Below, in pieces: positions 11,631 to 31,318 of a stretch of DNA of 64,000 nucleotides (within the stretch, counting starts at the first letter, position 1; each line of letters opens with the position of its first letter). The position numbers and the translations under genes were made by a program. Source of the stretch: an uncultured Granulosicoccaceae bacterium (lineage in GTDB: Bacteria > Pseudomonadota > Gammaproteobacteria > Granulosicoccales > Granulosicoccaceae). The stretch spans positions 1 to 64,000 of the forward strand of contig CALISD010000129.1 of assembly GCA_938041955.1 (NCBI GenBank). Reading direction: 5' to 3'. The notes beneath the pieces are model-generated. The model saw only the letters and a list, made by a program, of their open reading frames with translations, made no database searches and was not told the origin of the DNA.

Positions 11631-11659
11631 ATCCGTGCGCAGTACGCGCACGGATTTTT
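11631..11659 (+). terminator. Intrinsic terminator downstream of batD
   Basis: A 10-bp GC-rich stem (ATCCGTGCGC / GCGCACGGAT) with a 5-base loop is followed by TTTT on the plus strand. It fits termination of the MoxR/Bat operon. Opposite-strand transcripts of the collagen-like gene could also pass it. Confidence 0.7.
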
Positions 11660-11715
11660 GGAGTGGAATGGTTTGTATTGCTGGCTCTATTAGTTAGCCA
11701 GGTATCGAACGGTGG

Positions 11716-13248
11716 TTATTCATCGCCGGAGGCTTTGGCACCACCTTTCACCATATCGTCATTGCTTGCAGAGGAAATTGAGTCTTTCATCTTTCCAATT
11801 TCATCAACCATTTCTGCGTTCGACACTTGTGGTGAATACGATCCTCTTTCAGATCTTGCTGATTCGGCAATATCCATGCTGCGACCAGAGTCAGATTTAG
11901 CAGCATAGCCTCCGGCACTCGCGGCCATCTGTGATTTTATCGCTTCAAGCAAAGCCTGGATTTTTTGCATCAAACCGTCGTCAAAACGAGGCATTCCGGA
12001 AGCCTGCTTACGTTCCGGAGCGTGTCCGCGTTCAGCGCCGTATCCTCGCGACGCGCCACGCCCACGTTTGCCACCGCGTCCTCGTTCTGAAGCGTAGCCT
12101 CCTTCACTGTTATACCCACTGTCGCGCCACTGTCCGCGGTCGCTGCCACGCCCACGTTTGCCACCGCGTCCTCGGTCTGAAGCGTAGCCTCCATCACTGT
12201 TATACCCACGGTCGCGCCACTGTCCGCGGTCGCTGCCTCGACCTCTGCCTCGTCCACCACGGTGGCCGGCATCAGCACCATCCATTCCGGCAGGACCCGT
12301 ATCGCCTTTAGGGCCGCGTGATCCATCGATGCCGTCCTTACCGTCATGGCCACGTGGGCCGCGAGCCCCGTCTTTGCCATCGATACCGTCCTTACCGTCT
12401 GCGCCATCCTTGCCGTCGATGCCATCTTTACCATCGATACCGTCCTTACCGGCAGGGCCCGCAGGTCCGGTGTCACCTTTAGGGCCTTGAGCACCGTCTT
12501 TGCCATCAACACCATCCTTTCCGGCAGGACCTGCAGGTCCGGTGTCACCTTTAGGACCTCGAGCCCCGTCTTTACCATCGATGCCGTCTTTGCCATCAGC
12601 GCCATCCTTGCCATCGATACCATCTATGCCGTCGTGTCCTGCGGGACCGCTGAAGGCCGCAATGAGTTCGGCTCGATCAGCCTTGCCATTGCCATTGGTA
12701 TCAAATCCTTCCCGAGCAAACACTTCGTCGAAACCGATGCCGTCTTTTCCGTCTGCCCCTGCGTCGCCTTTATCACCCTTCGCACCGGTATCGCCCGTCG
12801 CTCCGGTTGCACCGGTATCGCCCTTAGCACCGGTTGCACCAGTATCGCCTTTCGCCCCGGTATCACCTTTGGCACCGGCTGGACCTTGTGCGCCGTCCTT
12901 ACCATCTTTGCCGTCATGTCCTGCTGGACCAGTATCCCCTTTGGGTCCTTGAGGTCCTGTATGTCCGGTATCGCCTTTAGGTCCTTGCGGTCCTTGAGGT
13001 CCTGTGTGTCCGGTATCTCCTTTAGGCCCCTGAGGTCCGGCTGGTCCTTGCTCGCCACCCCCTTTGCGACCGTTAATCAGTTTCAGATCGCGCTTTAACA
13101 GACTATCATCAGAGGTCTTTTGTGAGCCTCGATTCGACTGACGAGACGCGTCCGACTGCGAAGGTTTACTTGTATTTGTACGTGATGAATTGGCATCTTG
13201 AGTACGCTGTTTAGTGGTTCTATTTGCGCTGCCTATTTTAATAGCCAT
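11716..13248 (-). CDS. Collagen-like / EF-hand / RG-repeat protein, candidate T3SS-associated extracellular protein
   Basis: The 510-residue product is cysteine-free, with no signal peptide or membrane helix. Domains: a polar Ser/Thr/Gln/Asn-rich N-terminus (1-60); Gly-X-Y collagen-like repeats (about 66-171); a helix plus a perfect EF-hand loop with ligands D183, N185, N187, D191 and E194; a second Gly-X-Y block (about 201-325) rich in GKDGIDGKDG units; two near-identical 30-residue RG-rich repeats (335-394); and a helical C-terminal region (421-510). The polar N-terminus resembles type III secretion signals. The gene lies on the same strand as, and downstream of, the sctV/sctU arm. Function is unknown; an extracellular fibre or adhesin is plausible. 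Confidence 0.8.
   Translation of the reverse strand: MAIKIGSANRTTKQRTQDANSSRTNTSKPSQSDASRQSNRGSQKTSDDSLLKRDLKLINGRKGGGEQGPAGPQGPKGDTGHTGPQGPQGPKGDTGHTGPQGPKGDTGPAGHDGKDGKDGAQGPAGAKGDTGAKGDTGATGAKGDTGATGATGDTGAKGDKGDAGADGKDGIGFDEVFAREGFDTNGNGKADRAELIAAFSGPAGHDGIDGIDGKDGADGKDGIDGKDGARGPKGDTGPAGPAGKDGVDGKDGAQGPKGDTGPAGPAGKDGIDGKDGIDGKDGADGKDGIDGKDGARGPRGHDGKDGIDGSRGPKGDTGPAGMDGADAGHRGGRGRGRGSDRGQWRDRGYNSDGGYASDRGRGGKRGRGSDRGQWRDSGYNSEGGYASERGRGGKRGRGASRGYGAERGHAPERKQASGMPRFDDGLMQKIQALLEAIKSQMAASAGGYAAKSDSGRSMDIAESARSERGSYSPQVSNAEMVDEIGKMKDSISSASNDDMVKGGAKASGDE
12067..12246 (-). repeat. Two tandem 90-bp coding repeats
   Basis: Two 90-bp units with only a few differences encode residues 335-394 of the collagen-like protein. 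Each carries RGRGSDRGQWRD, then GYNS, then GGYAS, then RGRGGK. Recent tandem duplication is likely. Confidence 0.85.
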
Positions 13249-13487
13249 GATATTCCACCTGTTAAGTTGTTGAAGGAAAATGCATTTACAAACTGAAGTT
13301 AAATTGTACGAACAGGCGGTGTAGAAAAATAGTTGGGATTGTTACTTAGAGAGTTCGTGTAACTACTTACCGTGGTTGGATATATAAGCCGGTGCTCTAC
13401 ATGATTCTACACGTTGGATAGGCGGATACCGTATCGTCAAGTATGCAACCATCTAATAATATGGTCTTGTAAAATGGTATAGGTAAA

Positions 13488-13674
13488 CCCTGGTGTTGCA
13501 TAAAATTTCGAGTCCAGAAGCGTATAGAGAGGTATAAAAGGCGCTGCACGTAATTTTTACTGGATGAGCCTAGTCCTTCTTAAGTGAGAATCAGGAAAAA
13601 CGAGTACAGCGCCTTAGATGCTGCTATAGAAGCAGCGCAGCGGTTCTGGGCCGGTATTTAATGCAACACCAGGG
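13488..13674. repeat. 187-bp imperfect palindrome, MITE-like element
   Basis: Terminal inverted repeats CCCTGGTGTTGCAT (13488-13501) and ATGCAACACCAGGG (13661-13674) are exact. Inner paired segments AAGGCGCTG (13538-13546) and CAGCGCCTT (13607-13615), and CCAGAA/TTCTGG, extend the palindrome towards a centre near CTTAAG. It has no open frame. It could be a non-autonomous mobile element or a structured transcribed repeat. No clear target-site duplication is visible. Confidence 0.65.
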
Positions 13675-13760
13675 TAGACAGTTTGTTATTGCTTGCAGTG
13701 GGGGAGGGTGTGTGAAGCACATTAAGCGGCTTTATGTATCTTAAGCAGGTAGTTTTTAAC

Positions 13761-13797
13761 AAAAAAACATTCGCCTTGTGTGTGCAAGGCGAATGTT
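13761..13797 (-). terminator. Intrinsic terminator after the left T3SS arm
   Basis: A 13-bp perfect stem (AACATTCGCCTTG / CAAGGCGAATGTT, loop TGTGTG) is preceded on the plus strand by seven A residues, which gives a T run on the minus strand. It lies about 60 bp beyond the end of the harpin-like gene and should end the sctV-sctU-fliO-like transcript before the collagen-like gene. Confidence 0.85.
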
Positions 13798-13854
13798 AGT
13801 GAACGAAAATATTTTACCAGTAAGCCAAGGTGACGAACCACTGTGCGCTGTACA

Positions 13855-14550
13855 TCACTGCTTACGAGCCACTGACGACATACCTTCACCTATGCTCTTG
13901 ATCATAGTGCCGATAGCCTCCTGGAACATCTTAAATATCTGTGCCTGCGCTTGAAACTCTGCTTGAGTTTCAGCGAATGCTTCCGGGTTTTCTTTGCTAT
14001 CTATTGCACCCATTTTTTTGCCTAAGTCAACCATGTTCTTTAAGGCTTCACCCGCTGTCTTTCCCAGTGCCTTGGCAAGGATAGCCAGCCAGTTACCGTT
14101 GCCACCTGAGCCGCTGTTGTTTTTTGACGCTTGTTCGGTCTCGTCCTGCATTGATTTTTTTACCATGTCCATCACCCCGGACGTGACCTGTGAACCTGAT
14201 TTTTGAGAAGCGCCGCCACTTTTTTGTGCCGGATTCTGAAGTACTTCGTTTACGCCTTCCTGAGCGCCGCCCGGGGTTTCCGATTTAAAGTTGCTGCCAA
14301 CAAGACTCACTTGGTTTTTGGCATCGTCTGCCAAAAATTCTGGCATGCCCATGCTTTCAATAAGTTCGTTGAGTTCCATTTGCAAGTAGTCGGCGGCTGC
14401 ATTAGTTACCGACTTCAGCACATTGTGCACGCCATATTGCTTAAATAACTGGCTAGCGAGTTCGTTGTTACTGGCTGACTGAAAGGATTGTTGCGATAGC
14501 GCTTGCATCGCCTGGTTCTGGTTGTTCGCTGAAAGGGCTGCGTCACTCAT
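13855..14550 (-). CDS. Cysteine-free, helical T3SS-linked protein (harpin- or translocon-like candidate)
   Basis: The 231-residue product lacks Cys and any signal peptide. It is rich in Gln, Ala, Ser, Asn and Gly. The N-terminus is polar (MSDAALSANNQNQ); residues 100-150 are a Ser/Gly/Gln linker; and the amphipathic C-terminus runs from NWLAILAKALGKTAGEAL through GTMIKSIGEGMSSVARK. These traits fit harpins or EspA/SseB-type secreted helper proteins, but I recognise no family. It follows the FliO-like gene on the same strand, about 160 bp away, and ends at a strong terminator. A secreted or translocon role is inference. Confidence 0.6.
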   Translation of the reverse strand: MSDAALSANNQNQAMQALSQQSFQSASNNELASQLFKQYGVHNVLKSVTNAAADYLQMELNELIESMGMPEFLADDAKNQVSLVGSNFKSETPGGAQEGVNEVLQNPAQKSGGASQKSGSQVTSGVMDMVKKSMQDETEQASKNNSGSGGNGNWLAILAKALGKTAGEALKNMVDLGKKMGAIDSKENPEAFAETQAEFQAQAQIFKMFQEAIGTMIKSIGEGMSSVARKQ

Positions 14551-14714: not shown

Positions 14715-15047
14715 TCATGAATGGTTTGTGGAATCATTTGCTGGTTGGGCAGTGGAAGCTGTCACGTTAGATTCAGTATGGGAAATAGGCTCTGGAAACT
14801 TATCGATGACATCAACACGATCAGACGTCACACTCAGAAAATAATCTGTTCCCCGTAGGTTCACAATATAAAGTTGTAGGCGTGTGCTCAGCGCGTAGGT
14901 AGAGCGAACTTTAATTTCACCGTTGGAATCTCGCGCTGAATAGATGCGTGCAAGAAATTTAATAACAACCCATGCCATGATCAAGGTCAGGCACAGCGCC
15001 AACATCGTGAACAGAATAGAGACCGGCAAACTTGACACTGTTTCCAT
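14715..15047 (-). CDS. FliO-like membrane protein in the T3SS arm
   Basis: The 110-residue product has one transmembrane helix (about residues 9-33), then a short basic linker. A compact domain follows, with the sequence STYALSTRLQLYIVNLRGTDYFLSVTSDRVDVI, which matches the FliO layout (ALGPRERLVLVEV...LLGVT...I). The tail is polar. FliO assists assembly of the FliPQR export gate in flagella and is normally absent from injectisomes. The gene lies 31 bp downstream of sctU with an AGGAT ribosome site, so it is in the sctVU operon. The assignment rests on pattern, not on alignment. Confidence 0.65.
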   Translation of the reverse strand: METVSSLPVSILFTMLALCLTLIMAWVVIKFLARIYSARDSNGEIKVRSTYALSTRLQLYIVNLRGTDYFLSVTSDRVDVIDKFPEPISHTESNVTASTAQPANDSTNHS

Positions 15048-15078
15048 GTTTTATCCTGTAAGTTTCTCAGTGGAAAAT

Positions 15079-16224
15079 CTAGTGATAGGCGGTTAAGTCT
15101 TCACCCGGTGGGAGAATTGCAGAATGTCGGTTAAGTGTCACAGGGCCTGGCGTCGTAGCGCGACTACCTTGGTCATTTGGTCTTACAGACTTCGCCCACA
15201 AAATGACTTCTGCAATGATATCGAAAAGTGCTTTAGGTACATAGTGCCCCTCGGTGCGGTCTGCGAGCAAAGCTCTGGCTAGTTGTTCGTTGCGCAGTAT
15301 TGGTACACCTGCTCTTGCTGCTGCTTGTCGCATCTCTCTGGCAACGTTTTCCTCCCCTTTGCCAGTGATAACAGGTATTTTCGTTTTTTCACGATCATAA
15401 ATGATCGCAATTGCTACATGTATCGGGTTAACTACCAGTACATTCGCTTCGCTTGCGGCTTCGGCCGGTGCTTGCGCCCAGTCATATCCCAGATCTTTTC
15501 GGGCTCCCTTTAGCATCGGGTCACCTTCGGTCTCTTTCAATTCATCGCGGATGTCACGGACACTCATTTTCATTTTTTTTGTAAATGCGTACTTTTGATA
15601 AATGGCATCAAAAAACATGATTATTAGAAAGGCGGCTGACGCCCAGCCTAATATGCGTACAGCCAGGTACCAGATGGCGTCAATGATGCTCTCTTCTTCT
15701 GCACCTGGAAGTAGCAGGAGTTCCTGTATCAGTGCTGTGATCGTTAAGTAGAAAACAAAAGCCAGAATGAGTGTCTTGAACACTGATTTAAACAGTTCTA
15801 CCAGATTGTCCGGTCCAAACATTTTTTTCAAACCCTCTGCAGGATTTAAATTAGACATTTTTGGTTTGAACTTTTCGGCAGTTATCACCGGGCCGATAAT
15901 CATGAATTCGACAATTAAGCTAAAAATTGTCAATGGCACTAACACCAGTGCTGATACTCCTACAAATACTTGTATGCCGATCCGGGTGTGTGACCTTAAC
16001 GCTTCATTAAATGTTTTGGTGGGTGAAGAAACTGCCTGTTCCATGATAATAATCAGGCCCTCTGTCATGTAATTAAATACCAGCCAGAGCAATAGGAGTG
16101 CGAATATAAAACCCACCGTAAGACTCACATCAGCTACTTTGGCTACATCGCCCTTTTTTCGAGCGTCTCTGAGTTTTTTGCTGGTGGGTAGTTCAGTTTT
16201 ACTACCCTTATCCTGTTCTGCCAT
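15079..16224 (-). CDS. sctU: T3SS export-gate switch protein SctU (FlhB/YscU family)
   Basis: The 381-residue protein begins with the family's polar N-terminus (GSKTELPTSKKLRDARKKGDVAKV), then four transmembrane helices, then the cytoplasmic linker DIRDELKETEGDPMLK. The autocleavage site, normally NPTH, reads NPIH at residues 266-269 (15418-15429). The tail after residue 345 is longer than in many homologues. SctU controls substrate switching from needle to late substrates. It sits 45 bp downstream of sctV on the minus strand and is followed by the FliO-like gene. Confidence 0.95.
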   Translation of the reverse strand: MAEQDKGSKTELPTSKKLRDARKKGDVAKVADVSLTVGFIFALLLLWLVFNYMTEGLIIIMEQAVSSPTKTFNEALRSHTRIGIQVFVGVSALVLVPLTIFSLIVEFMIIGPVITAEKFKPKMSNLNPAEGLKKMFGPDNLVELFKSVFKTLILAFVFYLTITALIQELLLLPGAEEESIIDAIWYLAVRILGWASAAFLIIMFFDAIYQKYAFTKKMKMSVRDIRDELKETEGDPMLKGARKDLGYDWAQAPAEAASEANVLVVNPIHVAIAIIYDREKTKIPVITGKGEENVAREMRQAAARAGVPILRNEQLARALLADRTEGHYVPKALFDIIAEVILWAKSVRPNDQGSRATTPGPVTLNRHSAILPPGEDLTAYH

Positions 16225-16269: not shown

Positions 16270-18276
16270 TCACTGGTCGCTCTGTGAATTATTCGGTATT
16301 ACCTCAATGCGGCTTATCATGTTGAGTAAAAATGGTTTTGCGATCTCTGGATACGACAACACAGGTGTATTGAAACAGGATTCTTTGATCATTCTGCGAA
16401 TGTGTCTTCTTATGACCACCGGCACAACAATTACGGTGGGGTTCAGTGAATGTATGGCGCTCTGCAGTGCATGAGAAATACTGTCTGAATATTGTGGACT
16501 GAGACCGAGTTCGCTGGTGCCGGTATTTTCGCGGACCATTCCTAATAATTCCTCTTCCAGTGTGATCGAGAGCCCTATGGCCTCAATGACCCCCTCTGTA
16601 GCGTATTGGTGGCATAGTTGCCGACCCAGTGCAATGCGCGCATATTCGGTTAAATTCGCAAGGTCCTTTTCCTGTAAGCTGGCGGCGGCTACCGCCTCAA
16701 GTGCGGCAGCAAGGTTTCTGATCGGGACTTCTTCTTCAACCAGATTCTTTACCACGGTAGAGATTGACTGTAGCGATAGCGCTCGTTGAACCTCCTTAAC
16801 AACCTCCGGTGAATGCTCAGACGTCTGCAACAGTAGTCTGTTGGTTTGTTCAAGACCGATGAATAAGCCGATGTTTTTTCGAATAGCCAGCATGCTTTTA
16901 AGCGCTATGTCATCCAGGTCGTTAGGTGTTTCTGCAACTCCTGTGATGACTGGCACATCAAACACATCAAGCGACCAGCGTGTTGTTTCCTCTGTTGACC
17001 AGGTAAAGGTTAGGATCGGTAGTGTTACCCCGGTGCGTTCATGATGGTTATCCAGAAGTTCCTGCATTGTGTGTTGAATGCTGGTGTCTCCACCGTAGTG
17101 GGAGAGCTTGTGTGGTAAGTTGAAAGTAAGTGGTGATGAGTCTTTGAAACTTACCACGTTGGTATTTTTCACCAGGCTTACGCGCTGGTCTGCGCGGCGT
17201 TGTAATACCGTATCAAAAGCGGGAGCAGAATAGGAGTGGACAATCAAACTGAAGGCTGGCACCAGCATCGCGCCGGCGAAGAAAAGTACGATGCCTAAAC
17301 CGGTAAATATTGCGCTTGGAAAACCCGGAACCAGTGCGAAAAAAATACACATGACTCCGGCTACAATCAAGACACGGGGAATAGCAGAAAATTGCTGTTG
17401 AATGGCATCACCCAAATGATCGTCTGATCCGGCGTCGCTGACACGGGTGACAATAAGGCCGGCCGCCATGGCACCGAAGAGCGCTGGAATTTGCGCGACT
17501 AGACCATCGCCAATGGTGAGTATGGAATACTTGTTAATGGCATCGCCGCTTGACATTCCCAGCTGAAAAACACCGACAGCGAGCCCGCCGAGCAGGTTGA
17601 TTATAATAACGACAATGCCTGCGATCGCATCACCTTTTACAAATTTCATCGCGCCGTCAAGGCTGCCATGCAATTGGCTTTCTTTTTCCAGATCGGATCG
17701 TTTCTGTCTGGCTTCGGTTTTATCAATCAGGCCGGACCTTAAGTCTGAATCGATTGAAAGCTGTTTGCCCGGCATTGCGTCAAGGGTGAACCTTGCGCCT
17801 ACCTCAGCGACCCGTTCTGAACCTTTGGCTATTACCAGAAACTGCACTAGTGTGATGATTAAAAACACCACTAAGCCGACTACGATGTTGCCGCCGGCTA
17901 CCATCGCGCCGAAGGTTTCAATGATGTTGCCGGCATCTCCCTCAAGTAGAATAAGCCGGGTAGTGGCTACAGAGAGTGCGAGTCTGAAAAGTGTAGATAT
18001 CAATAATACACTTGGGAACGCCGAGAACTGCAATGCGGAGTTAACGTATATAGCCATTAAAACAAGCATCACACCCAGCGCTATGTTCATTGCCACCAGT
18101 GTATCAATTAGTACAAGCGGCAACGGCAGGATCATCAGGCCAATGATGGCAATGATAAGAAACGCTAGAATTACGTCGCTACTGTTGCTTGATATTCTGC
18201 TGGCACCGTCGAGAAACATCTGCAGATAATTACTGTTCGCTTTGAGGTTCGGGTGTGCGTTGTTGTGTGTGGACAT
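16270..18276 (-). CDS. sctV: T3SS export apparatus protein SctV (FlhA/YscV family)
   Basis: The 668-residue product has about eight N-terminal transmembrane helices. The highly conserved FHIPEP segment is present (MPGKQLSIDSDLRSGLID, then GSLDGAMKFVKGDAIAGI). A large cytoplasmic domain (about residues 350-668) follows; in homologues it forms the nonameric ring that receives chaperone-substrate complexes. Length is normal for an injectisome SctV. It is the first gene of the minus-strand arm, divergent from sctC across a regulatory region of about 760 bp. Confidence 0.95.
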   Translation of the reverse strand: MSTHNNAHPNLKANSNYLQMFLDGASRISSNSSDVILAFLIIAIIGLMILPLPLVLIDTLVAMNIALGVMLVLMAIYVNSALQFSAFPSVLLISTLFRLALSVATTRLILLEGDAGNIIETFGAMVAGGNIVVGLVVFLIITLVQFLVIAKGSERVAEVGARFTLDAMPGKQLSIDSDLRSGLIDKTEARQKRSDLEKESQLHGSLDGAMKFVKGDAIAGIVVIIINLLGGLAVGVFQLGMSSGDAINKYSILTIGDGLVAQIPALFGAMAAGLIVTRVSDAGSDDHLGDAIQQQFSAIPRVLIVAGVMCIFFALVPGFPSAIFTGLGIVLFFAGAMLVPAFSLIVHSYSAPAFDTVLQRRADQRVSLVKNTNVVSFKDSSPLTFNLPHKLSHYGGDTSIQHTMQELLDNHHERTGVTLPILTFTWSTEETTRWSLDVFDVPVITGVAETPNDLDDIALKSMLAIRKNIGLFIGLEQTNRLLLQTSEHSPEVVKEVQRALSLQSISTVVKNLVEEEVPIRNLAAALEAVAAASLQEKDLANLTEYARIALGRQLCHQYATEGVIEAIGLSITLEEELLGMVRENTGTSELGLSPQYSDSISHALQSAIHSLNPTVIVVPVVIRRHIRRMIKESCFNTPVLSYPEIAKPFLLNMISRIEVIPNNSQSDQ

Positions 18277-19035
18277 TTTAGCTACCTAAAACGTTAGTAG
18301 TAATTGTTGTGCAGTGTCTAAACTGCGTGTTGATATGTTGATATGTTGATGACAACAATTCGAATAATAAGTAAATAACCAGGAACAATGAATGCAATCT
18401 ATTATTGCATTTACCGGTTCCTATGCGTTGTTATCGTAACGTGAAAAGAAATTTCAGTGCCAGTGGACGGATTCGACCATGTGGTTCTCCTGCTAATCAG
18501 AAATAGGTTTCCCTTGGATGAATAATTAGTACGGTTAGTGAATTAACAACTGACGTAACTGATTTTCTAACACTTATTGAAGTATCAAACAGGGATCACA
18601 TTAGTTCATAATCGTAGGCATAGCGATTAAAGTGAAGGGAATAAAAATAGTAATAATTTTTTCTGTTAGTAAAAATACGTATACCGTTTATTTCTTGCAA
18701 TAGGGAAAATGTGATTGTTGAGAAATTACCCATACGGCATAGAACAATGCGCTTCTCTAAAGAAGACGGATATCGTTATCACAGATTTAGCGTGTTGGAT
18801 CAATCAGAAATGTAGTTCGTATGGTGTATTGGTGGAGCATCAATAATCCGTTACTCTTCGCTCAGAATTACGACAACATGCAAGAAAAATAAAAAAAATG
18901 CATTACTTTATGTCGGTAATTATGGTTGTGTTTCTCTTATGGTGGAGATGTTGTATTTCTCTGACAAAAATAAAAACAAACGCGGAGATTTGAAGTGAGA
19001 GTTTGAGGTGGGGATTTGAGAATAAGGATATTCTT
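18277..19035. promoter_or_regulatory. Divergent AT-rich control region of the two T3SS arms
   Basis: The gap separates sctV (minus) from sctC (plus), so promoters for both arms should lie here. It is clearly AT-richer than its neighbours. Visible structure: three near-tandem TGTTGATA units (about 18329-18351) and a long dyad (18381-18422). I could not assign specific -35/-10 elements or an alternative-sigma box with confidence. Confidence 0.55.
18381..18422. promoter_or_regulatory. Inverted repeat in the sctV-sctC control region
   Basis: Outer arms AGGAAC/GTTCCT and inner arms AATGCAAT/ATTGCATT around CTATT form a 42-bp dyad. No T tract follows. It lies about 105 bp upstream of sctV, so it could be an operator, perhaps for the LuxR/FixJ-type regulator encoded in the cluster, or a 5' UTR hairpin. 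Confidence 0.45.
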
Positions 19036-21036
19036 ATGGCTGGTTGGTCTTTAGGTTTATTTTTTATTGGCGCTGTATGTATGGCTGTCCTGGTCAGTGT
19101 TCCAGTACACGCAGCCAACGTTCCGAACTTTGAAAAAAGCGTTGACTTTAATGTCAGAGAGCAACCGGTAGAGGAATTTCTAAACGCTTTATTTCAGGAA
19201 ATAGATGTTCCGGTTGCCATCAATTCTTCATTGATAGGTAATGTTAACGGGCGATTTCGCGATTCCGCCCGTAGTGTTTTTGATGAAATCTCAGGTGCTT
19301 TTAATGTCGTTGTTTATTACGACGGTGCCGTGGCGCAGGCCTATAGAAAAAACGAAATCAGTAGACGGTTAATACCCGCAAGCAAAACCGAAGCGGGGAG
19401 GGTGGCGTCTATTGTCGATAAAATGGGTTTACCTGATTCATTGAACAAGATTGAGCTGGAAGACAGTGGTGTGGTGGCCACTGGTTTTCGACGATTCCAG
19501 GAGCAACTTGATGAAATCATTACTTCGGTAAAGGAATTGCCAGTTCCGGTAGCTAAGAAAAAAACTGAGCCGGAGGTGCAGATTGCGGTTTCGTTTCCGG
19601 AAGAATCGCCGCTGGTCTACCAGGTTTTTAAATTAAAACATGCATGGGCAACTGATACTAATTTCCCGGTTGCTGGCCAGACTATTGTTGTTCCGGGTGT
19701 TGCTACGCTTCTCAATCAGTTGCTATTGCAAGATGGGGCAGGCGGAGGTGATTTAAGTTCGTTTGAACACAATCGTACTCTTAGAGATCTTAAAGGATTA
19801 GGTCTATCGAGTCGTAAAAATTCGCTGCAAAACGACAGTCAATCAGTTGCTGAAGTCAGCGCTGATGATCTTACCACGACGCCTAGAATTGTTGCAGACT
19901 CGAGACTGAATGCCATCGTAATTCGGGATAAAGAAAATAAAATGCCCGCCTACCGGAGGTTGATTGATAGTCTGGATGTGGAATCAGAAATGGTAGAGAT
20001 CGAAGCTACCATCATTGATATTAATACGGATAAAACGCGAGAGTTAGGGGTCAATTGGCGGTATCGGGACAATGATGCTGATGTGTTGTTAGGCGATGGC
20101 TCATCAGCAGACCAATCTCTGATAGCGGGTAATGGACTTATAACTCCGCAGGGACAAGGCGGAATACTCTCTTTCAGTTTGGGTGAGCCGGCAAATTTTC
20201 TGGCTAGAGTTCGAGCGTTGGAGCAAAAAGGCGCGGCCCGTGTAATTTCAAAGCCACACGTCATCACGCTATCAGATGTAGAGGCGGTGTTAGCGGCCAC
20301 CACTGAGTTTTTTGTGCGAGTGGCCGGTGAAGAAGAGGTTGATTTATTTAACGTGCCCGTCGGTACAACACTCAGGGTCACCCCGCATATTTTTACGGAT
20401 GGGGGGCAGAATCGAATAAAGCTGTTGGTCAATATTGAGGATGGTTCGCAAACCTCCGGTACGCCGGTAGACAACATTCCCATTGTAGAGCGAGCAAATA
20501 TTAGTACGCAGGCGGTGGTCAATGACGGTGACAGTCTGTTAGTGGGCGGTTTGGTCAGGGATAGCTATCGGAACGCAGGGTATCAGGTGCCGGTATTGGG
20601 TCGGATTCCGTTACTGGGTGGGTTGTTCCGTTCCAGATCGAATCAGGTGGTGCGTGTAGAAAGGTTGTTCATGATTACGCCACGAGTAGCGAGTGGTATT
20701 GGTTTCGGTCCGGGGAAATATTCCGCGACGCTATCGGGAGATCAGAATCAGATCGTACAGGACTCCACCAAGAGGATAGACGCTATCGACACCCCTTATC
20801 GAGCACCGATTTCTTATTGGTCAGAGGAGTCAAGAACCCGAGGTGTGCAAGAGTTTGTTTCACAGACTGCAGGTACTCCACAGGCTGGTGTCGCGGGATC
20901 TAATAAGCAAAAAATACTGACAGCGTCGGCTGACCAGGCCGCCGTGGGCGCTTCTGGTGATGGTAGCTACGCCATTATTCAAGGCAATGTGTTTAGAACT
21001 CCGTTTAAGGTTGAAGAGTGGGTGACGGGCAACTAA
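19036..21036 (+). CDS. sctC: T3SS outer-membrane secretin SctC
   Basis: I chose the ATG at 19036 (AAGGAT at 19024-19029) over a TTG at 19003; it gives 666 residues with a signal peptide ending near VPVHA-AN. An N0-like domain (about 30-100) and N1/N3-type domains follow. Then comes the secretin core with VEIEATIIDIN, the VGTTLRVTPHI segment and the GGLVRDS, RIPLLGGLFR and LFMITPR motifs. SctC forms the outer-membrane ring of the injectisome. Its presence shows this is not a flagellar system. It is the first gene of the plus-strand operon. Confidence 0.95.
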   Translation: MAGWSLGLFFIGAVCMAVLVSVPVHAANVPNFEKSVDFNVREQPVEEFLNALFQEIDVPVAINSSLIGNVNGRFRDSARSVFDEISGAFNVVVYYDGAVAQAYRKNEISRRLIPASKTEAGRVASIVDKMGLPDSLNKIELEDSGVVATGFRRFQEQLDEIITSVKELPVPVAKKKTEPEVQIAVSFPEESPLVYQVFKLKHAWATDTNFPVAGQTIVVPGVATLLNQLLLQDGAGGGDLSSFEHNRTLRDLKGLGLSSRKNSLQNDSQSVAEVSADDLTTTPRIVADSRLNAIVIRDKENKMPAYRRLIDSLDVESEMVEIEATIIDINTDKTRELGVNWRYRDNDADVLLGDGSSADQSLIAGNGLITPQGQGGILSFSLGEPANFLARVRALEQKGAARVISKPHVITLSDVEAVLAATTEFFVRVAGEEEVDLFNVPVGTTLRVTPHIFTDGGQNRIKLLVNIEDGSQTSGTPVDNIPIVERANISTQAVVNDGDSLLVGGLVRDSYRNAGYQVPVLGRIPLLGGLFRSRSNQVVRVERLFMITPRVASGIGFGPGKYSATLSGDQNQIVQDSTKRIDAIDTPYRAPISYWSEESRTRGVQEFVSQTAGTPQAGVAGSNKQKILTASADQAAVGASGDGSYAIIQGNVFRTPFKVEEWVTGN

Positions 21037-21075
21037 TGGCTACGCACACAAGATTCACTTCACGGGAGAACTTCA

Positions 21076-22266
21076 ATGAATAGGAAAATTGATATAAAAC
21101 TTACTGACGAACATACCACTGGTAAGTTTATTGTGACGTCAGGTATAAATGCAGGAGCAGAATATACCATCCGTGAGGGCGATACAGTAACGCTAGGGGC
21201 GAGCATTGATAGTGATATTGTGGTTCATAGCTCAAGTGTTGAGCAGTGGCTGGCCAGCATAGAAAATCGTTCTGGTGTGCTCTTCCTCACGGTGATTGAA
21301 GGCACGATTCTCCGCGATGGCGAACTGTTGGAAGCTGCTGTACCAGTGCAGATTGATGAGCGCAATATATTTGTTGTTGGTGATACCGAGTTTCGGGGGG
21401 CTTACGAGCGTAATCTTATCCTATCTGGAAAGCTCGGAAAAATACACCAGTCGCCTAATGAAGATAGCAAATCATCCAGCCGGATAGGGCCCTTGGTGCC
21501 TGGCCCCGGGCCATTGAATCCCGGGCAATTGCGAAAAGGAATTGATGAGAAAAGAAATAGTGTGCGCTCGGGCGTAAAGTACCTGTTGCTGGGGTTTTCA
21601 ATTTTGTGTGTGGCAGTGGGTACTCTTTCAGCGATTTATGCTTTGACTGGCAGTGTGATCATGGTCAATGCAGCGCCCGGGCCTTCTTATTCAGCTTTTG
21701 AGGAGAAAATCGAAGCTCTGGATCTTGATACGTTCAATTTTGCAAGGGACGGCGATAAGTATCTGATTACCGGTATGGTGGATACACGTGAGCAGAAAAA
21801 TCAGCTGCTGGGTATTGCAAGTGAAACTGACACTGTCGTGACGCTTGATCTACAGGTAAATGATGAACTAATCGAATCCATCGAAGACATTTACCGGGTC
21901 AATGGTATCAAGGCAAAGGCGCAGGTGCTTGAACCGGGACGTGTACGAGTTAACACCAAAACCAATGATGTCGACAAGCTGGATCTGGTGGAGCTGTCTG
22001 CCACGCAAGATATCCCGTCCCTGCAGCAGTTGGAGGTAATAAATGAACCTCCAGGAACAATAATGGAGCCGGCTAAGCCTGTCAGGCAGGATCCTGATAA
22101 ACGAGTGACTTTGATTGCCGCTGGCACGAACGCTTATATCATGACACAGGACCAATCAAGGTACTTTGTTGGTGCGCTTTTACCTTCGGGGCATTTAGTT
22201 GAAAGTATCGAGAATGGCATTGTCATTGTCAGCAGGGGAGGGATGAAAGAAACACTGAAGTATTAG
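21076..22266 (+). CDS. sctD: T3SS inner-membrane ring protein SctD
   Basis: The 396-residue product has an N-terminal FHA-like cytoplasmic domain (about 1-110; TLGASIDSDIVVHS), a Pro-rich linker, one transmembrane helix (about residues 169-192; YLLLGFSILCVAVGTLSAIY), and a periplasmic part with ring-building-type beta-alpha modules. This is the usual SctD layout, and it lies directly downstream of sctC as in Ysc systems. SctD connects the secretin to the SctJ ring. Confidence 0.9.
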   Translation: MNRKIDIKLTDEHTTGKFIVTSGINAGAEYTIREGDTVTLGASIDSDIVVHSSSVEQWLASIENRSGVLFLTVIEGTILRDGELLEAAVPVQIDERNIFVVGDTEFRGAYERNLILSGKLGKIHQSPNEDSKSSSRIGPLVPGPGPLNPGQLRKGIDEKRNSVRSGVKYLLLGFSILCVAVGTLSAIYALTGSVIMVNAAPGPSYSAFEEKIEALDLDTFNFARDGDKYLITGMVDTREQKNQLLGIASETDTVVTLDLQVNDELIESIEDIYRVNGIKAKAQVLEPGRVRVNTKTNDVDKLDLVELSATQDIPSLQQLEVINEPPGTIMEPAKPVRQDPDKRVTLIAAGTNAYIMTQDQSRYFVGALLPSGHLVESIENGIVIVSRGGMKETLKY

Positions 22267-22304
22267 TAGCAATTCATTTATAGAGAATATAGGGGAGAAT
22301 ATTA

Positions 22305-22601
22305 ATGTCAGAAATCACAACAGCACAAGTAACTTCGATGTTGTCGGCTAATTCCACCGGGCGTGGTAAAAACTCGAACAGCTGGTTTGAGGAAATGGCT
22401 GACGCATGGGGTTCTGCATTAAATGCTCAGGCCACTCGCATTGTGGAAAAAGCAGATGAGGTGGCCGGTGGTTTTGATACACCGGCAGAAATTACAGAGC
22501 TCACAGCTGAATCACTGCGTATGAACTTTATTTCTAATAGCTCACATACGTCATTGACCAGTGTCGGCTCAGCCTTGGAAACACTGGCGCGCAAGCAATA
22601 G
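22305..22601 (+). CDS. sctF: Probable T3SS needle subunit SctF
   Basis: A 98-residue, Cys-free, helical protein with no signal peptide. It follows sctD by 38 bp with a GGGGAGAA ribosome site. The C-terminal half (ITELTAESLRMNF, then ALETLARKQ) resembles the polymerising helix of needle and rod subunits, and shares the TPAEI...LT..S pattern with the next gene, the inner rod candidate. The position (D-F-I-J) and length support SctF. Swapping of the F and I roles between the two genes cannot be excluded by eye. Confidence 0.75.
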   Translation: MSEITTAQVTSMLSANSTGRGKNSNSWFEEMADAWGSALNAQATRIVEKADEVAGGFDTPAEITELTAESLRMNFISNSSHTSLTSVGSALETLARKQ

Positions 22602-22670
22602 TTGATGGAATATTCTATTTCCACTATGTGATTTGTGAAGTGCTTTGTATTGAATTGGAGGGCGTATTAA

Positions 22671-23048
22671 ATGGAACCTATTACATCAAGTTCAACCACA
22701 GTCAGGCACACTGTTCAGGAGCCAATGGATATTGCCTATGGTGCTACTCTGGCTGAAGATGCAGAAGCCTTTGAAGCGAGTATGGCATTAGCCGAAAGGC
22801 GACTATCTGAGCCGGTAAGTGAAATAGCAAAAGCGGCCTTTGAGCCATTAAATTATATTAACCAGGAAGCAAAGTCATTAAGTGACTATGCCAGCTCGGC
22901 TGTTGCGTCCGGTAATGAATTAACTCCTGCAGAAATTGTTAATCTGACAGTTCAAAGTCATAAATTTCTGTTTCACAGCCAGTTGACGGCCAACGTTGCA
23001 AACAGATCTGCAGAAGGAATTCAGCAATTGTTCCGGCAGCAAGGATAG
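22671..23048 (+). CDS. sctI: Probable T3SS inner rod protein SctI
   Basis: The 125-residue, Cys-free protein ends in LTPAEIVNLTVQSHKFLFHS followed by a terminal helix with FRQQG. This is the typical C-terminal signature of YscI/SctI rods, immediately before sctJ. There is no signal peptide. The start ATG at 22671 follows GGAGGG at 22658-22663. The rod links the export gate to the needle. Confidence 0.85.
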   Translation: MEPITSSSTTVRHTVQEPMDIAYGATLAEDAEAFEASMALAERRLSEPVSEIAKAAFEPLNYINQEAKSLSDYASSAVASGNELTPAEIVNLTVQSHKFLFHSQLTANVANRSAEGIQQLFRQQG

Positions 23049-23052
23049 CGTG

Positions 23053-23802
23053 ATGAAAATGCCAATTGCATTGCTGTTCGTCATTCTATTTCTCACCGGA
23101 TGTGAGTCACAGGTGTTATTTTCTAACCTTACTGAAAGTGAGGCGAATGAAATAGCAGCAGCTTTATATTCTGCCAACCTGCCGGCTGACAAAGTGGCTG
23201 ATAAAAAAGGCGGCAGCTATAAAATATTCACCAATCAATCTTCATTCTCGGATGCGGTCACGGTTCTGCAATTACGAGGTTTGCCGCGTGAGCGCTTTGC
23301 AAGTGTTGGTGAGGTGTTTGAGAAAGATGGCTTTGTATCTTCACCGCTTGAGGAGCGAGCCCGTCTCAACTTTGCTATAAGTCAGGAGCTCTCCCGAACT
23401 ATTTCAAATATAGATGGTGTGGTGATGGCGAGGGTGCACTTAGCGGTGCCGAAAAAAGCTCACCTGGCAGAATCGGTGGAGCCATCGAGTGCTTCCGTTT
23501 TTGTAAAGCATCGTGCAGATGTAGATTTGGCCGGCAGTGTAGGAAAGATAAAGTCACTGGTCGTAACAGGTCTTGAGAATCTGCCCTATGACAATGTCAC
23601 TGTGGCATTGTTTCCCGCACAACACGAGCCCACTCCGTTGAACGGCGCGACTGCAGCCGCACAGATAAGTAAGGCATCAATGGGAGAGATCAGCCCTACC
23701 ACTATTGTTACCGCGCTAATTGTATTTTTTCTGTCGATAGCGGGTTTAAGGTTGATTTCGTTTATTAGAGCTCTGATTTTTTCTTCAGAAGAAAAGGATT
23801 AG
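23053..23802 (+). CDS. sctJ: T3SS lipoprotein ring component SctJ
   Basis: The chosen ATG at 23053 follows AAGGAT (23041-23046), which overlaps the sctI stop, and gives a 249-residue lipoprotein. The lipobox LTGC falls at residues 14-17. YscJ/FliF domain features: LSESEANEIAAALYSANL-like start, GLPRERF, SPLEERARLNFAISQELSRT and a C-terminal transmembrane helix (TTIVTALIVFFLSIAGL). SctJ forms the inner-membrane ring with SctD. The open frame upstream to 22996 overlaps sctI and is not needed. Confidence 0.95.
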   Translation: MKMPIALLFVILFLTGCESQVLFSNLTESEANEIAAALYSANLPADKVADKKGGSYKIFTNQSSFSDAVTVLQLRGLPRERFASVGEVFEKDGFVSSPLEERARLNFAISQELSRTISNIDGVVMARVHLAVPKKAHLAESVEPSSASVFVKHRADVDLAGSVGKIKSLVVTGLENLPYDNVTVALFPAQHEPTPLNGATAAAQISKASMGEISPTTIVTALIVFFLSIAGLRLISFIRALIFSSEEKD

Positions 23803-23806
23803 TACG

Positions 23807-24376
23807 GTGTCTGCTGTCAACATGGAAGAGGCCAGAAGTAGCCGACTGTTTGCCGCTCGCGCAGCAGCACACATAGATTTGCTGAGCCGCCAGACAGGTA
23901 TTGCAGTGGACGGTGTCCCGTGGCAGGTATTGTCAGCGTTACCGGACTGGTGTTTGACTACTAAAAAGGGCCGACAGGAATTGCTACGGGTATGTGGTGC
24001 TTTGTATCTCAGTCCGTCTATTCGTGTTTCGATTGATGGGCTGATATTGCGTAAATTGAGACACTTTGTCGGGTCGAATGTGTTTCATCACATTCGCTCT
24101 GCAGAGAAGTTGAATCATGATGTAGCGGTTAGCTTGGCGGCAGATGAGATTGAGATACAAGTAATGTCGTCTGGAACGTCTGTTCTGTTAGGTACGCTGC
24201 ACGATAATAACCTCATCAGTCTTTACAGAGAATCTATTTTTGGTCTTCACACTCATGGTGTTAGCGCCGAGTTGGCGCATGATATTTATTCACAGGCGGC
24301 TTCTCTGGTAAATGAGAAATCAAGTAAAAATGATGTAGAAGGTACATCAATAGTGGACGAAATATTGGATTGTTAA
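23807..24376 (+). CDS. sctK: T3SS accessory protein SctK
   Basis: A GTG start at 23807 lies 4 bp after sctJ. The 189-residue soluble protein has the pattern LPDWCL, then LLRVCGALYLSPSIRVSIDGLILRKLRHFVG, which is typical of YscK/OrgA-like proteins, including the conserved GA..lsP.lr..idG segment. SctK joins SctQ pods to the SctD ring. Its position between sctJ and sctL is canonical for Ysc-family clusters. Confidence 0.8.
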   Translation: MSAVNMEEARSSRLFAARAAAHIDLLSRQTGIAVDGVPWQVLSALPDWCLTTKKGRQELLRVCGALYLSPSIRVSIDGLILRKLRHFVGSNVFHHIRSAEKLNHDVAVSLAADEIEIQVMSSGTSVLLGTLHDNNLISLYRESIFGLHTHGVSAELAHDIYSQAASLVNEKSSKNDVEGTSIVDEILDC

Positions 24377-24412
24377 GATTGCGCTTCTATGTCACAGGTC
24401 GGTGGATAAATC

Positions 24413-25027
24413 ATGGCGTTAATTACATTTATTAATAATGAGCGACTCACTATGGGTTCGAGCCAGCTTGTGTACGGACCTGAAGAAATAAATTCTCTAT
24501 ACAGTGTGATTGAGCAAGCGGAACTGTTGCAAGACATTTTCTCGACTGAAATAGAAAAGACAGAAGCTGCTTGCAAGGCAGGTTATGAAGCGGGTTACGA
24601 AGAAGGGCAGACTGAGGGGTATGAGGCGGCTCTTGAGCATATCGCTGTCAAGCTAGTGGTACTCGCCAAAGAGGCAAGCAGCGCTCGAGATGAATTGGAA
24701 GAAAGCGCTGCCAAAATCGCTTTAAAGATTGTTGAAAAGATCGCTGGTGAAGTAGGTACAAAAGAGATGATCGCCGCGCTTGCTCAATCTGCCGCTAAGG
24801 ATATGGTGTCGCGTGAACCTGTGGTACTGCGAGTGCATCCTGAAAATTTTGAATACATGAAACGTGAAGGGATACGGCGTGATCAGCCGGCATCCCGAAT
24901 TGTCGAGGTAGTGAGTGATCCCGGGTTAAGTCAGATGGATTGTGTTCTGGAGACTGAGTTCGGCCAGATTAAGGCCGGTCTACAGACCCAGTTAAAAGTG
25001 TTGTCAGAGAGACTGTATGGAGACTGA
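24413..25027 (+). CDS. sctL: T3SS stator protein SctL
   Basis: The 204-residue protein has an Ala/Glu-rich helix with GYEAGYEEGQTEGYEAAL repeats (about 55-80), a coiled coil, and a C-terminal HrpE/YscL domain with VVLRVHPENFEYM and SDPGLSQMDCVLETEFGQI. That closing segment matches the FliH/SctL/V-ATPase E-type end. SctL is the peripheral stator that regulates the SctN ATPase. Its last 11 bp overlap sctN. Confidence 0.92.
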   Translation: MALITFINNERLTMGSSQLVYGPEEINSLYSVIEQAELLQDIFSTEIEKTEAACKAGYEAGYEEGQTEGYEAALEHIAVKLVVLAKEASSARDELEESAAKIALKIVEKIAGEVGTKEMIAALAQSAAKDMVSREPVVLRVHPENFEYMKREGIRRDQPASRIVEVVSDPGLSQMDCVLETEFGQIKAGLQTQLKVLSERLYGD

Positions 25028-26417
25028 ACAGCGGGATAATGCATCGGCCGGTGTGTTGAACTTTGAGCATGTACCGGTGAATAATGACTCTGGTGACATC
25101 ACAGATAGTAGAAGAAGTCATAATTTTGATGCGCTCCTAAATAGTGTTGGCAGTTCGGTTGAAGAGATAGGGCGGATCGTTCGTGCTTACGGTACCGCGG
25201 TGCACGTGTCAGGTATTACAGCCTATGTAGGGCAAAGATGCGTAGTTGATAATCCCGATACCGGGCGCAGAACCTATGGGGATGTAGTGGGTATTAAGGA
25301 TAATCACGTTATTCTCTATTTGCTTGGGACACTTGAAGGTATTTCCAATCGTTCGGAGGTCAGGGTATCTCATAGAGGCAAGACAATTCCGTTTTCAGAA
25401 TCACTGGCTGGCTGCATTCTTGATGGTGCAGGCAATTTTATTTATCAGCCGCATGATCAGTTAAACGTTAAAAACGTGTCTATTGATCGATCGGCTCCTG
25501 ACCCGTTAACACGCAAACTTGTTGATACCATTTTCGCCACCGGTGTTAAGTCGATAGATACGCTTTTAACGGTGGGTGAGGGTCAAAGGCTTGGGATCTT
25601 CGCTTCAGCGGGTGTAGGTAAGTCGACTCTTCTTTCAATGTTCGCTCGTCACGCGGATACAGATGTAATTGTTATCGGGTTGATAGGTGAGCGGGGCCGG
25701 GAAGTACGGGAATTTATAGAGCATAACCTGGGTAGTGATGGTTTGGCCAGATCGGTGATGGTGGTGTCAACCTCTGATCGACCTGCAATGGAACGGGTTT
25801 CTGCAGCACTGACCGCGACCACTATAGCGGAAGGCTTTCGCGCGCGTGGAAAGCGGGTGTTACTTTTGATCGATTCCGTGACGCGATATGCGCGAGCACT
25901 GCGTGAAATTGGATTATCAGTAGGCGAACCACCGAGCCGCCGGGGTTTCCCACCCTCGGTTTTTGCCGAGTTACCACGACTACTTGAAAGGGCAGGTAAT
26001 GACGATACAGGGTCCATAACAGCGTTCTACACCGTTTTAGCTGAAGATGAAGAAACCACTGACCCAGTCTCTGAGGAGGTGAAGTCAATACTCGATGGTC
26101 ATATTGTATTGTCTCGTGCGTTGGGTGAGAAAGGGCAATACCCACCGATAGATGTATTAGCCAGCACCAGCCGGGTGTTTCGTCGCATCGTGACAGAGTC
26201 GCATCTAAATAATGCAACCCGTCTACGTTCACTGCTTGCTAAGTATCAAGAAAACGAATTACTACTGGCTATGGGAGAGTACAGCGAGGGCGTCGATGAG
26301 TTGGCAGATAAGGCAATAAGTAATAAGCCGTTGATAGACAACCTGTTAAGTCAGAAGCCAGACGAGGAATATTCTTTGGATCAATCTCTTGATCTACTGG
26401 CGGAGGTGATTCAATAG
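25017..26417 (+). CDS. sctN: T3SS ATPase SctN
   Basis: The 466-residue protein is an F1-beta-like hexameric ATPase: Walker A ASAGVGKST (about 197-204), GERGREVREFIE, Walker B VLLLIDSVTRYARALREIGL and the catalytic segment GEPPSRRGFPPSVFAELPRLLERAG. A polar N-terminal extension of about 45 residues precedes the usual start. SctN dissociates chaperones and unfolds substrates at the export gate. The start overlaps sctL by 11 bp. Confidence 0.97.
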   Translation: METEQRDNASAGVLNFEHVPVNNDSGDITDSRRSHNFDALLNSVGSSVEEIGRIVRAYGTAVHVSGITAYVGQRCVVDNPDTGRRTYGDVVGIKDNHVILYLLGTLEGISNRSEVRVSHRGKTIPFSESLAGCILDGAGNFIYQPHDQLNVKNVSIDRSAPDPLTRKLVDTIFATGVKSIDTLLTVGEGQRLGIFASAGVGKSTLLSMFARHADTDVIVIGLIGERGREVREFIEHNLGSDGLARSVMVVSTSDRPAMERVSAALTATTIAEGFRARGKRVLLLIDSVTRYARALREIGLSVGEPPSRRGFPPSVFAELPRLLERAGNDDTGSITAFYTVLAEDEETTDPVSEEVKSILDGHIVLSRALGEKGQYPPIDVLASTSRVFRRIVTESHLNNATRLRSLLAKYQENELLLAMGEYSEGVDELADKAISNKPLIDNLLSQKPDEEYSLDQSLDLLAEVIQ

Positions 26418-26418
26418 T

Positions 26419-26901
26419 ATGGACTGCAACATTCATTCACTTCAACAATTGGCAGCGGTATACCAATATAAGCTGCGGGTCGCGCGTCGTGAGTTTGAGC
26501 AACAGCGCGGTTTAGTGGAACAATCTAAGGCAGAACTGACCGATGTCACCGCAGCGGTAGTGAGATTGGAAGCTAATCTTCACGATAATGCAACGTATAT
26601 GCGTGTTGATGAGGTTTGCTCAAATGCCGTAAAAATGGTCTTCGCACTAAAATACAAGGCTCAGCTTGAATATGACGTTGATCGGGAGTCCTATTTTCTG
26701 GAGCTTGCCGAGGCCGATGTGCGGGAGCAATTGCAAGTGCTCTCCGATAAACGCAGGTTAATCGAGAAGTTCGAAACCAAGATTAAGGCAGTCGCCAATA
26801 TAGTCAAAAGGGTAAATCGATCAATCGAGGTTCTGGAGGAGATATCGCAAGAAGAGGATTTTGAACAAACTTACTATTTGAGGGTTGCAGAGAATGTCTA
26901 A
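26419..26901 (+). CDS. sctO: T3SS central stalk protein SctO
   Basis: The 160-residue protein is almost entirely heptad-rich helix, with two long antiparallel coiled-coil arms, as in YscO/FliJ. It is located directly after sctN (start 2 bp after its stop, GGAGGT at 26402-26407). SctO sits in the pore of the ATPase ring. Sequence alone does not identify YscO proteins well; the position decides the call. Confidence 0.82.
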   Translation: MDCNIHSLQQLAAVYQYKLRVARREFEQQRGLVEQSKAELTDVTAAVVRLEANLHDNATYMRVDEVCSNAVKMVFALKYKAQLEYDVDRESYFLELAEADVREQLQVLSDKRRLIEKFETKIKAVANIVKRVNRSIEVLEEISQEEDFEQTYYLRVAENV

Positions 26902-27637
26902 TCTCAATAGCAGAGTGAGGTCCCAGAAGACACCTATTGCTCGAAATACGGCGAACGTTGCGTCTGGTCGAAGGAAAGTCACGGCGCAAATTGCAGCGAG
27001 TGATACGGATATAGAAAAATTCAATGACTTGCTGCGGGAGAAAAAACGTCTGCACAATAGAGTGGGTGAGCAGCGAACTGTGGAAAAAAAATCTGCTGCG
27101 AGTGTTATTGCGCAGCGCGCTTGTGTAGATGAGATAACAGTGAGTAACTCTGGAAATGATCATCGTCCACATGGGGGGGTGTTGGCAAGCAAAGGTCAAT
27201 CGAATGGCGACGCTGATATTCAAACCGCCACACACGCAGACTATAGCCTTCGAATCTCATTGGGCTCAAATGCAACCGGCGCCAAGGTGGATACCAATAT
27301 GGGAGGCATGGAATCAAAAACAGTAGAGTCAATTGTTGCTGTTATTCAGAGAATCGTAATGAACCAGCGGGGCACCAGTGAGAAAAAAAGATGGTCGATT
27401 CAGTTAGGTCTGCCCGGACAGGCAGTAATAGATATAGCGCTTGAGTATTCAGGGAAAGACGAATGGCAGCTAGGTTTTAGTGAGCACGATCGTTCAGGCG
27501 GTAGAAGAGACAGGCAGTTCGTTGAGACCGGTGGTAACCCTGTAGCAGTGGATGATATGGAGGCTCTTTACCATTGTGTAGAGGCGGGATTAAAAATGGC
27601 GCTTCCCCGCTTACGTATTACTGAACTGCACAAGTAG
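26894..27637 (+). CDS. sctP: T3SS needle-length/substrate-switch protein SctP
   Basis: The ATG at 26894 overlaps the sctO stop (ATGTCTAA); a TTG at 26885 is the alternative. The 247-residue protein has a basic, low-complexity N-terminal half. A globular C-terminal domain (about 145-240) contains RWSIQLGLPGQAVIDIALEY and LYHCVEAGLKMALPRLRI, consistent with the T3S4 domain of YscP/SctP. Ruler proteins vary strongly in sequence; the position between sctO and sctQ supports the role, though a kinase/regulator pair intervenes. Confidence 0.72.
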   Translation: MSNLNSRVRSQKTPIARNTANVASGRRKVTAQIAASDTDIEKFNDLLREKKRLHNRVGEQRTVEKKSAASVIAQRACVDEITVSNSGNDHRPHGGVLASKGQSNGDADIQTATHADYSLRISLGSNATGAKVDTNMGGMESKTVESIVAVIQRIVMNQRGTSEKKRWSIQLGLPGQAVIDIALEYSGKDEWQLGFSEHDRSGGRRDRQFVETGGNPVAVDDMEALYHCVEAGLKMALPRLRITELHK

Positions 27638-27649
27638 GGTGGTAGTGTT

Positions 27650-30343: not shown

Positions 30344-30364
30344 GGATATTAAAACGACATTGTT

Positions 30365-31296: not shown

Positions 31297-31318
31297 ATAG
31301 GTGTGCGGAAAATAGAAA

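Follow-up and report, generated by a model that had tools for sequence, protein, structure and literature searches.

A gene on the minus strand of the window, by which we mean the whole 64,000-nucleotide stretch of DNA analysed here from an uncultured Granulosicoccaceae bacterium, encodes a collagen-like protein (COL, positions 11716 to 13248) whose anatomy includes a conserved EF-hand-like unit; genes with this unit are rare in the sets that were searched, and two of the three known ones adjoin type III secretion systems (T3SSs) of different types. From its sequence and surroundings we infer, giving this reading about even weight, that COL may be an accessory, calcium-assembled, collagen- and harpin-like extracellular fibre exported by the T3SS. 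The more specific idea that calcium binding by the EF unit is a trimerisation switch, the exported collagen chains leaving the cell unfolded and locking in extracellular Ca2+, is put forward tentatively, as something that we would sooner doubt than assert.

The COL frame has 510 codons, an ATG start and the ribosome-binding-like sequence AGGTGG immediately 5' of it; the protein is free of cysteine and, when compared with its own 6.18-Mb draft genome, matches only itself. A polar N-terminus lacking any hydrophobic stretch (residues 1-62; 13063..13248, minus strand, as for all parts of COL) is followed by a first Gly-X-Y block (residues 65-169; 12742..13056), by the conserved EF unit (residues 172-199, with the loop at D183-E194; 12652..12735) and by a second Gly-X-Y block (residues 201-326; 12271..12648). 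Both Gly-X-Y runs are uninterrupted, with 35 and 42 triplets, and COL passes the Pfam family PF01391 with 108 bits against a cut-off of 27.2 (E 2e-31). Two RG-rich repeats of 90 nt each, 97% identical (12055..12234; copies at 12055-12144 and 12145-12234), lie in a block (residues 326-425) with a pI of 11.1, and a C-terminal helix is predicted at residues 424-445 (11914..11979). The preliminary description of this DNA had the coordinates, the strand, the 510 residues and the absence of cysteine exactly right; its two Gly-X-Y blocks and two 30-residue RG-rich repeats agree with the triplet counts, the HMM search and the nucleotide repeats.

The two ends of the protein also conform to that description, which had proposed a polar N-terminus without signal peptide and a helical C-terminus. 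Residues 2-51 of COL contain 52% S/T/N/Q and 8% hydrophobic residues, respectively the highest and the lowest values among 58 coding sequences of the window, a hand-listed set outside which a few short ORFs remain, e.g. sctS; in the ranking of N-terminal polarity COL is first, the neighbouring ORF231 second and the needle protein SctF fourth. Within the first 60 residues the hydropathy of 11-residue segments peaks at 0.06, against 1.94-2.85 in five window proteins that we took to carry Sec-type leaders. Judged from composition and hydropathy, neither COL nor its relative in Neomegalonema (locus L068, see below) has a leader; the N-terminus of the other relative (L050) is cut off. At the C-terminus, helix 424-445 was predicted with block pLDDT values of 77 and 83 and is the only usable part of the single-sequence model of full-length COL, which is otherwise unreliable (mean pLDDT 43.4); the prediction for L050 is similar, and short hydrophobic-patterned helices within Gly/Ser-rich C-terminal parts are found in all three proteins. 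The hydrophobic moment exceeded that of shuffled sequences in three of five helices tested (shuffle fractions 0.000, 0.013 and 0.000) and was not significant in the window helix (0.121) or in the first helix of L050 (0.059). The C-terminal part of COL found nothing in the PDB better than E 0.099, and its profile has no relation to that of SctF (0.07%).

COL is located at the end of the minus-strand arm of a T3SS gene cluster, whose order is sctV (16270..18276; PF00771, with TIGR01399 below its cut-off), sctU (15079..16224; PF01312 5.1e-92, with TIGR01404 below its cut-off), a gene for a FliO-like small membrane protein (14715..15047; PF04347 5.1e-7, over the cut-off), ORF231 (13855..14550) and then COL, on the same strand and 606 bp past ORF231. 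The rest of the system (sctC, D, F, I, J, K, L, N, O, P, a histidine kinase, a response regulator, Q, R, (S) and T) is encoded on the plus strand at 19003..32116; profiles support SctC (TIGR02516 4.2e-109) and SctJ (TIGR02544, over the cut-off), SctI scores below the cut-off of PF17001, and the labels D, F, K, L, N, O, P, Q, R, S and T depend on gene order, on the sequence by eye and mostly on conservation in sister clusters. The histidine kinase and the response regulator (27650-29465) are placed within the sct run between sctP and sctQ, and the same is seen in sister clusters. A lipoprotein-like protein encoded 3' of sctT (32211-33041) has a weak TrbH-like match below the cut-off, and weak homologues of it lie near T3SS genes in the sister loci L026, L027, L094 and L100.

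The earlier view of COL as the same-strand neighbour of the sctV/sctU arm is right as to strand and position, but a terminator-like hairpin intervenes, with a 13-bp stem followed by a T run, 3' of ORF231 (13766..13797, minus strand); the region has 6 terminator-like sites against 4.1 in shuffled sequences, and the stem at 13797-13766 is by far the longest. Between COL and ORF231 there is moreover a MITE-like element of 189 bp with 20-bp inverted repeats (13487..13675). Since the hairpin and the element intervene, COL is probably not in one operon with the T3SS arm; it forms the outer end of the T3SS region and probably has its own promoter. No common upstream motif rose above shuffled sequences, and nothing in 11300-19100 reached an Rfam gathering threshold. 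The next gene outward of COL is convergent and appears to be the last of a MoxR/VWA-type gene set. In line with the earlier statement that the window lacks recognised translocators, none of their families matched the 21 different window proteins that were given to Pfam and NCBIfam. Copies of the 189-bp element, 86-87% identical, also occur in another genome, G011 (L054 11344-11533; L059 11889-12080), 51 and 205 bp downstream of one Gly-rich and one collagen-like gene, an association that is biased because these loci were fetched for such genes.

The EF unit of COL is strictly conserved. Loops of EF-hands have 12 residues with ligands at positions 1, 3, 5, 9 and 12, and position 8 is usually hydrophobic. 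The COL loop D183-E194 is DTNGNGKADRAE, with Asp, Asn or Glu at loop positions 1, 3, 5, 9 and 12, and this pattern is kept in all three known copies (window, L050 and L068), which all have Ala at position 8. The loop had been called perfect, which holds for the filled ligand positions but not for position 8, nor for the Pfam EF-hand scores, which are 12-13 bits with whole COL and at most 18.5 bits with the isolated unit, below cut-offs of about 25. The 28-residue consensus is GFDEVFAREGFDTNGNGxADxxELxxAF. Between the window and L068, 27/28 residues are identical but only 9/28 third codon positions (0.32), with a nucleotide identity of 0.74, which argues for an old divergence under strong selection at the protein level and not for a recent transfer. 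The helix-like stretch N-terminal of the loop is conserved as strongly as the loop itself, beyond what Ca2+ binding needs, and this points to a protein-protein contact, for example the association of chains. In each of the three proteins Gly-X-Y sequence adjoins the unit.

The three carriers are the window genome, a second genome of the same genus (G004) and a Neomegalonema MAG (Rhodobacterales, Alphaproteobacteria). In G004, a draft about 93% complete, the gene (L050) is on contig C30, and its product is identical to COL at 77% in the EF unit and at 48% in the C-terminus; the contig start cuts the gene, at the end that in the window faces the T3SS. A search of the G004 genome detected no T3SS sctV or sctJ; the sctV and YscJ matches that it has come from a single contig and appear to be flagellar genes (FlhA, FliF). 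The Neomegalonema gene, L068, is the only confirmed relative among the matches listed in a scan of contigs from a collection of 84,980 species, in which at least 591 stretches matched. It encodes 750 residues from its likely start at 9839, and there the EF unit is placed between a 7-triplet Gly-X-Y stretch and a run of 146 triplets; the C-terminal part common to the window and G004 is not recognisable in it by eye. L068 is divergent to, and 257 bp from, a secretin-N0-like gene (PF21304 21.9 bits, below the cut-off of 27), the first gene of a T3SS cluster of a different type, in which sctJ, L, N, Q, R, U, D and V are over the Pfam cut-offs and sctT was identified by blastp. By our estimate chance alone would seldom give such a position in a genome of 3.3 Mb (a neighbour slot corresponds to about 2 in some 3,000 genes). 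Two of the three carriers thus adjoin T3SSs, of two types and in two classes, and the contig of the third is cut; the Neomegalonema adjacency suggests that the T3SS may export a calcium-assembled fibre.

In the sampled genomes the EF unit is rare; a wide occurrence of the gene away from T3SSs, which would have spoken against the earlier proposal of a T3SS-secreted protein, was not seen there. It was matched in 2/48 genomes of the family, in 1/398 of a phylum sample (the window genome itself), in 2/293 of a class sample, where one match is an unrelated cytochrome-like protein, and in 5/390 genomes of the Neomegalonema order, where four matches are weak and unrelated; the family, phylum and class samples overlap in the window genome. 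Among the candidates that were rejected, the match in G894 comes from a similar short loop of a cytochrome-like protein, that in G558 belongs to an ordinary EF-hand-like protein whose start resembles a leader, and for G555, G736 and G666 the ORFs listed over the weak match have nothing COL-like. The search with whole COL gave some match in 15/17 family genomes, many of them unrelated collagen-like or low-complexity genes; one match of that set, in G004, has both the EF unit and the C-terminal part in common with COL.

As to whether genomes with the same T3SS also carry the gene, COL is missing from the sctU flank of all eight other window-type clusters (G012, G027, G032, G033 twice, G057, G061 and G067:C50), read from 1.7 kb (G067, contig end) to about 20 kb past the FliO-like gene; a ninth cluster, G067:C295, ends before this flank. 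The only sequences flagged there were a Gly-Gly-Thr run in the ORF231 homologue of G057 and an RTX-repeat protein of the same genome. SctJ exceeds the TIGR02544 cut-off in 11/48 family genomes, some of which have other T3SS types, and sctV is found at E 1e-120 in 11/380 genomes of the Neomegalonema order, the carrier included. At ten other T3SS loci of that order, read for up to 20 kb on each side and less at contig ends, no PF01391-like protein was flagged; the triplet screen gave only a GHH-triplet protein in G555, and the Gly-rich screen gave two further flags in G469 (a protein of 348 aa, and an ORF that is apparently in the wrong frame), an ORF of 114 aa in G555 and one with PGGV repeats in G638. 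In the class sample the window-type sctV reached E 1e-120 in 1/293 genomes, the window's own, so that this T3SS type was not traceable outside the family. Because none of the eight sister clusters carries the gene on its sctU flank and G004 shows no T3SS sctV or sctJ, COL is to be seen as accessory; the original suggestion of a T3SS-secreted fibre, plug or adhesin gains from the linkage of L068 in another class, but COL is not a core fibre or plug of this T3SS. G011 has a different T3SS and encodes Gly-rich proteins in which short helices rich in Leu and Gln occur (L059 8223-10214 and 10429-11838; L091 8535-8870); one of these proteins adjoins an sctD-like gene at a contig end.

This accessory distribution is what would be expected if COL were an ordinary collagen-like surface or biofilm protein that leaves the cell by another leaderless route, e.g. 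type I secretion, and merely shares an island with the T3SS. Such an origin, which we regard as unlikely and place first among the alternatives, would also fit the probable separate transcription unit, the frequency of EF-less collagen-like or low-complexity matches in the family and the relative in G004, a genome with no detectable T3SS. It accounts poorly for carriers that directly adjoin T3SSs of two types in two classes, and COL lacks a leader and no transporter gene was noticed beside it in the window, where sugar ABC genes lie past sctT.

The basic RG block, the polar N-terminus and the T3SS neighbourhood would be compatible also with an effector that is injected and acts inside the host cell, its RG repeats binding host nucleic acid. 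We consider this improbable, as the repeats were not seen in the sequences of either relative and Pfam found no enzyme domain in COL; moreover, Gly-X-Y blocks of such length are a typical trait of extracellular fibres.

Descent from a phage tail fibre appears very improbable. PHROGs tail-fibre families match COL (40 families, best 4e-60), and in E. coli O157:H7 the collagen-like proteins are prophage-encoded according to PMC3368898, but among the best 25 of the 40 families the matches fall mostly on the Gly-X-Y and RG sequence and some over the EF unit or the N-terminus, and with the C-terminal part and the EF unit alone no PHROG family was matched, for which reason the prophage fibre reading was rejected. 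By tblastn the EF unit had no match in phage records (E 0.01) and the EF region none in plasmids, none of 147 pattern matches in viral contigs was confirmed as a relative, and no phage structural gene was noticed near COL. That COL is a non-functional, repeat-driven ORF or an assembly oddity, as its internal repeats and the contigs of other genomes that begin or end inside such genes might suggest, is hardly credible in view of an open 510-codon frame with a ribosome-binding-like sequence and of the strong purifying selection on the EF unit across classes.

An accessory T3SS-exported fibre is therefore the reading that we favour, because the linkage of L068 is independent, the EF unit is constrained, a leader is missing, the N-terminus is polar, calcium-linked proteins recur at other T3SSs and the MIIA domain discussed below offers a precedent. 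Counted against it are the accessory distribution, G004, the probably separate transcription unit, the low Pfam EF-hand scores, the moment of the window helix (0.121), the lack of a common upstream motif and the lack of a recognisable shared C-terminal part in L068. In the mechanism that we propose, COL, Cys-free and leaderless by sequence and by its composition probably disordered, would be exported through the T3SS with its N-terminus first; its folding would be held back in the cell and triggered outside by calcium, which on binding to the EF unit would pack three chains and nucleate the flanking triple helices. At the collagen rise of 0.286 nm per residue their lengths would be about 30 and 36 nm. 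Membranes, polyanionic polysaccharide or other surfaces may then be bound by the C-terminal helix, helped in this strain by the basic RG repeats, and in this way the fibre could bridge the secretion apparatus and a target cell. If this is true, the exit route of leaderless bacterial collagens would become testable in one small protein, as would T3SS delivery of a fibre that is too rigid for the needle once folded; the 28-residue unit offers a compact candidate nucleator of collagen under calcium control.

ORF231, the nearest T3SS-arm gene to COL, is best read from its sequence as an N-terminally extended paralogue of the needle protein SctF. In fact, hhalign aligns its residues 148-231 with residues 21-98 of SctF (96.3%, E 1.8e-9), nearly the whole needle core; as a control, the inner-rod SctI profile gave 0.6% with ORF231, and the SctF and SctI profiles match each other at 68.6%. 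Homologues follow the FliO-like gene in 5/8 sister clusters, found by blastp in L022 (17140-17775), L023 (1491-2225), L093 (1180-2079) and L095 (695-1390), and by eye and alignment in L025 (18630-19370). The C-terminal half of the family is SctF-homologous and ends in ARKQ in four of six members, the remaining two having ASKQ or SRK there; the N-terminal half is variable, polar or hydrophobic. ORF231 is thus a possible filament or tip subunit of the window-type T3SS, and plausibly a partner of a fibre such as COL. It is not called EspA-like on structure because its single-sequence model is poor (mean pLDDT 52.2) and the PDB gave no match, neither for the model at E <=0.001 with Foldseek (best 0.22) nor for the profile above chance level (best E 0.73). 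FliO is usually regarded as specific to flagella. A FliO-like gene lies directly 3' of sctU in all nine window-type clusters with this flank read (window 14715-15047; L022, L023, L024, L025, L027, L093, L095 and L097), over the PF04347 cut-off in the window and in all seven homologues tested, with the eighth, L093, recognised by blastp only.

Calcium-linked proteins are found at 2/18 other T3SS loci (eight sister clusters and ten of the Neomegalonema order), a theme rather than a rule. The sctU flank of G057 encodes a PF00353 RTX-repeat protein, and G555 has, between sctV and sctU, a Gly-rich protein with PF07481 (DUF1521) and PF00094 (VWD), a relative of which is present in G469 with its VWD match below the cut-off. 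These RTX-repeat and DUF1521/VWD-type proteins (L093 4441-5598; L105 3608-4774; L107 3364-4410) have no obvious leader.

In the titles and abstract openings of the literature searched there is no description of a collagen-like T3SS substrate, and no paper in that literature joins type III secretion with Granulosicoccus, the genus that we take the window family to be. Several known systems resemble COL in part. Harpins are helper proteins, rich in Gly and poor in Cys, that plant pathogens secrete through T3SSs, and COL is likewise Cys-poor, leaderless and Gly-rich, with hydrophobic-patterned helices and a T3SS linkage, but unlike harpins it combines true collagen triplets with an EF unit; no harpin family appeared among the Pfam matches of COL (to E 1) or of its isolated parts and relatives (to E 5), nor in NCBIfam. 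With Scl1/Scl2, Lcl and the Burkholderia Bucl set (PF01391) COL shares long uninterrupted Gly-X-Y blocks, and its NCBIfam matches are SclB, SclA and Lcl, all far below their cut-offs (131.5 bits vs 325 for the Scl adhesin); unlike these proteins it has neither leader nor LPXTG, and it has an EF unit between the blocks and a T3SS in its neighbourhood. In PMC4565658 the T3SS link is Bucl4, described as an inner-membrane Bac_export_1 protein with a collagen domain and not proposed as a substrate. NopE and VIC_001052, with the MIIA domain (DUF1521), are T3SS-linked and disordered until Ca2+ is bound, as COL may be, according to PMC6506597; there, MIIA of a protein titled type III-secreted is disordered and folds on Ca2+, the authors propose that its unfolded state is adapted to secretion, and a reference title names DUF1521 a metal-ion-inducible autocleavage domain. 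The domain differs from that of COL, and MIIA cleaves itself and has no collagen, but as a precedent its Ca2+-induced folding comes closest to the mechanism that we propose for COL.
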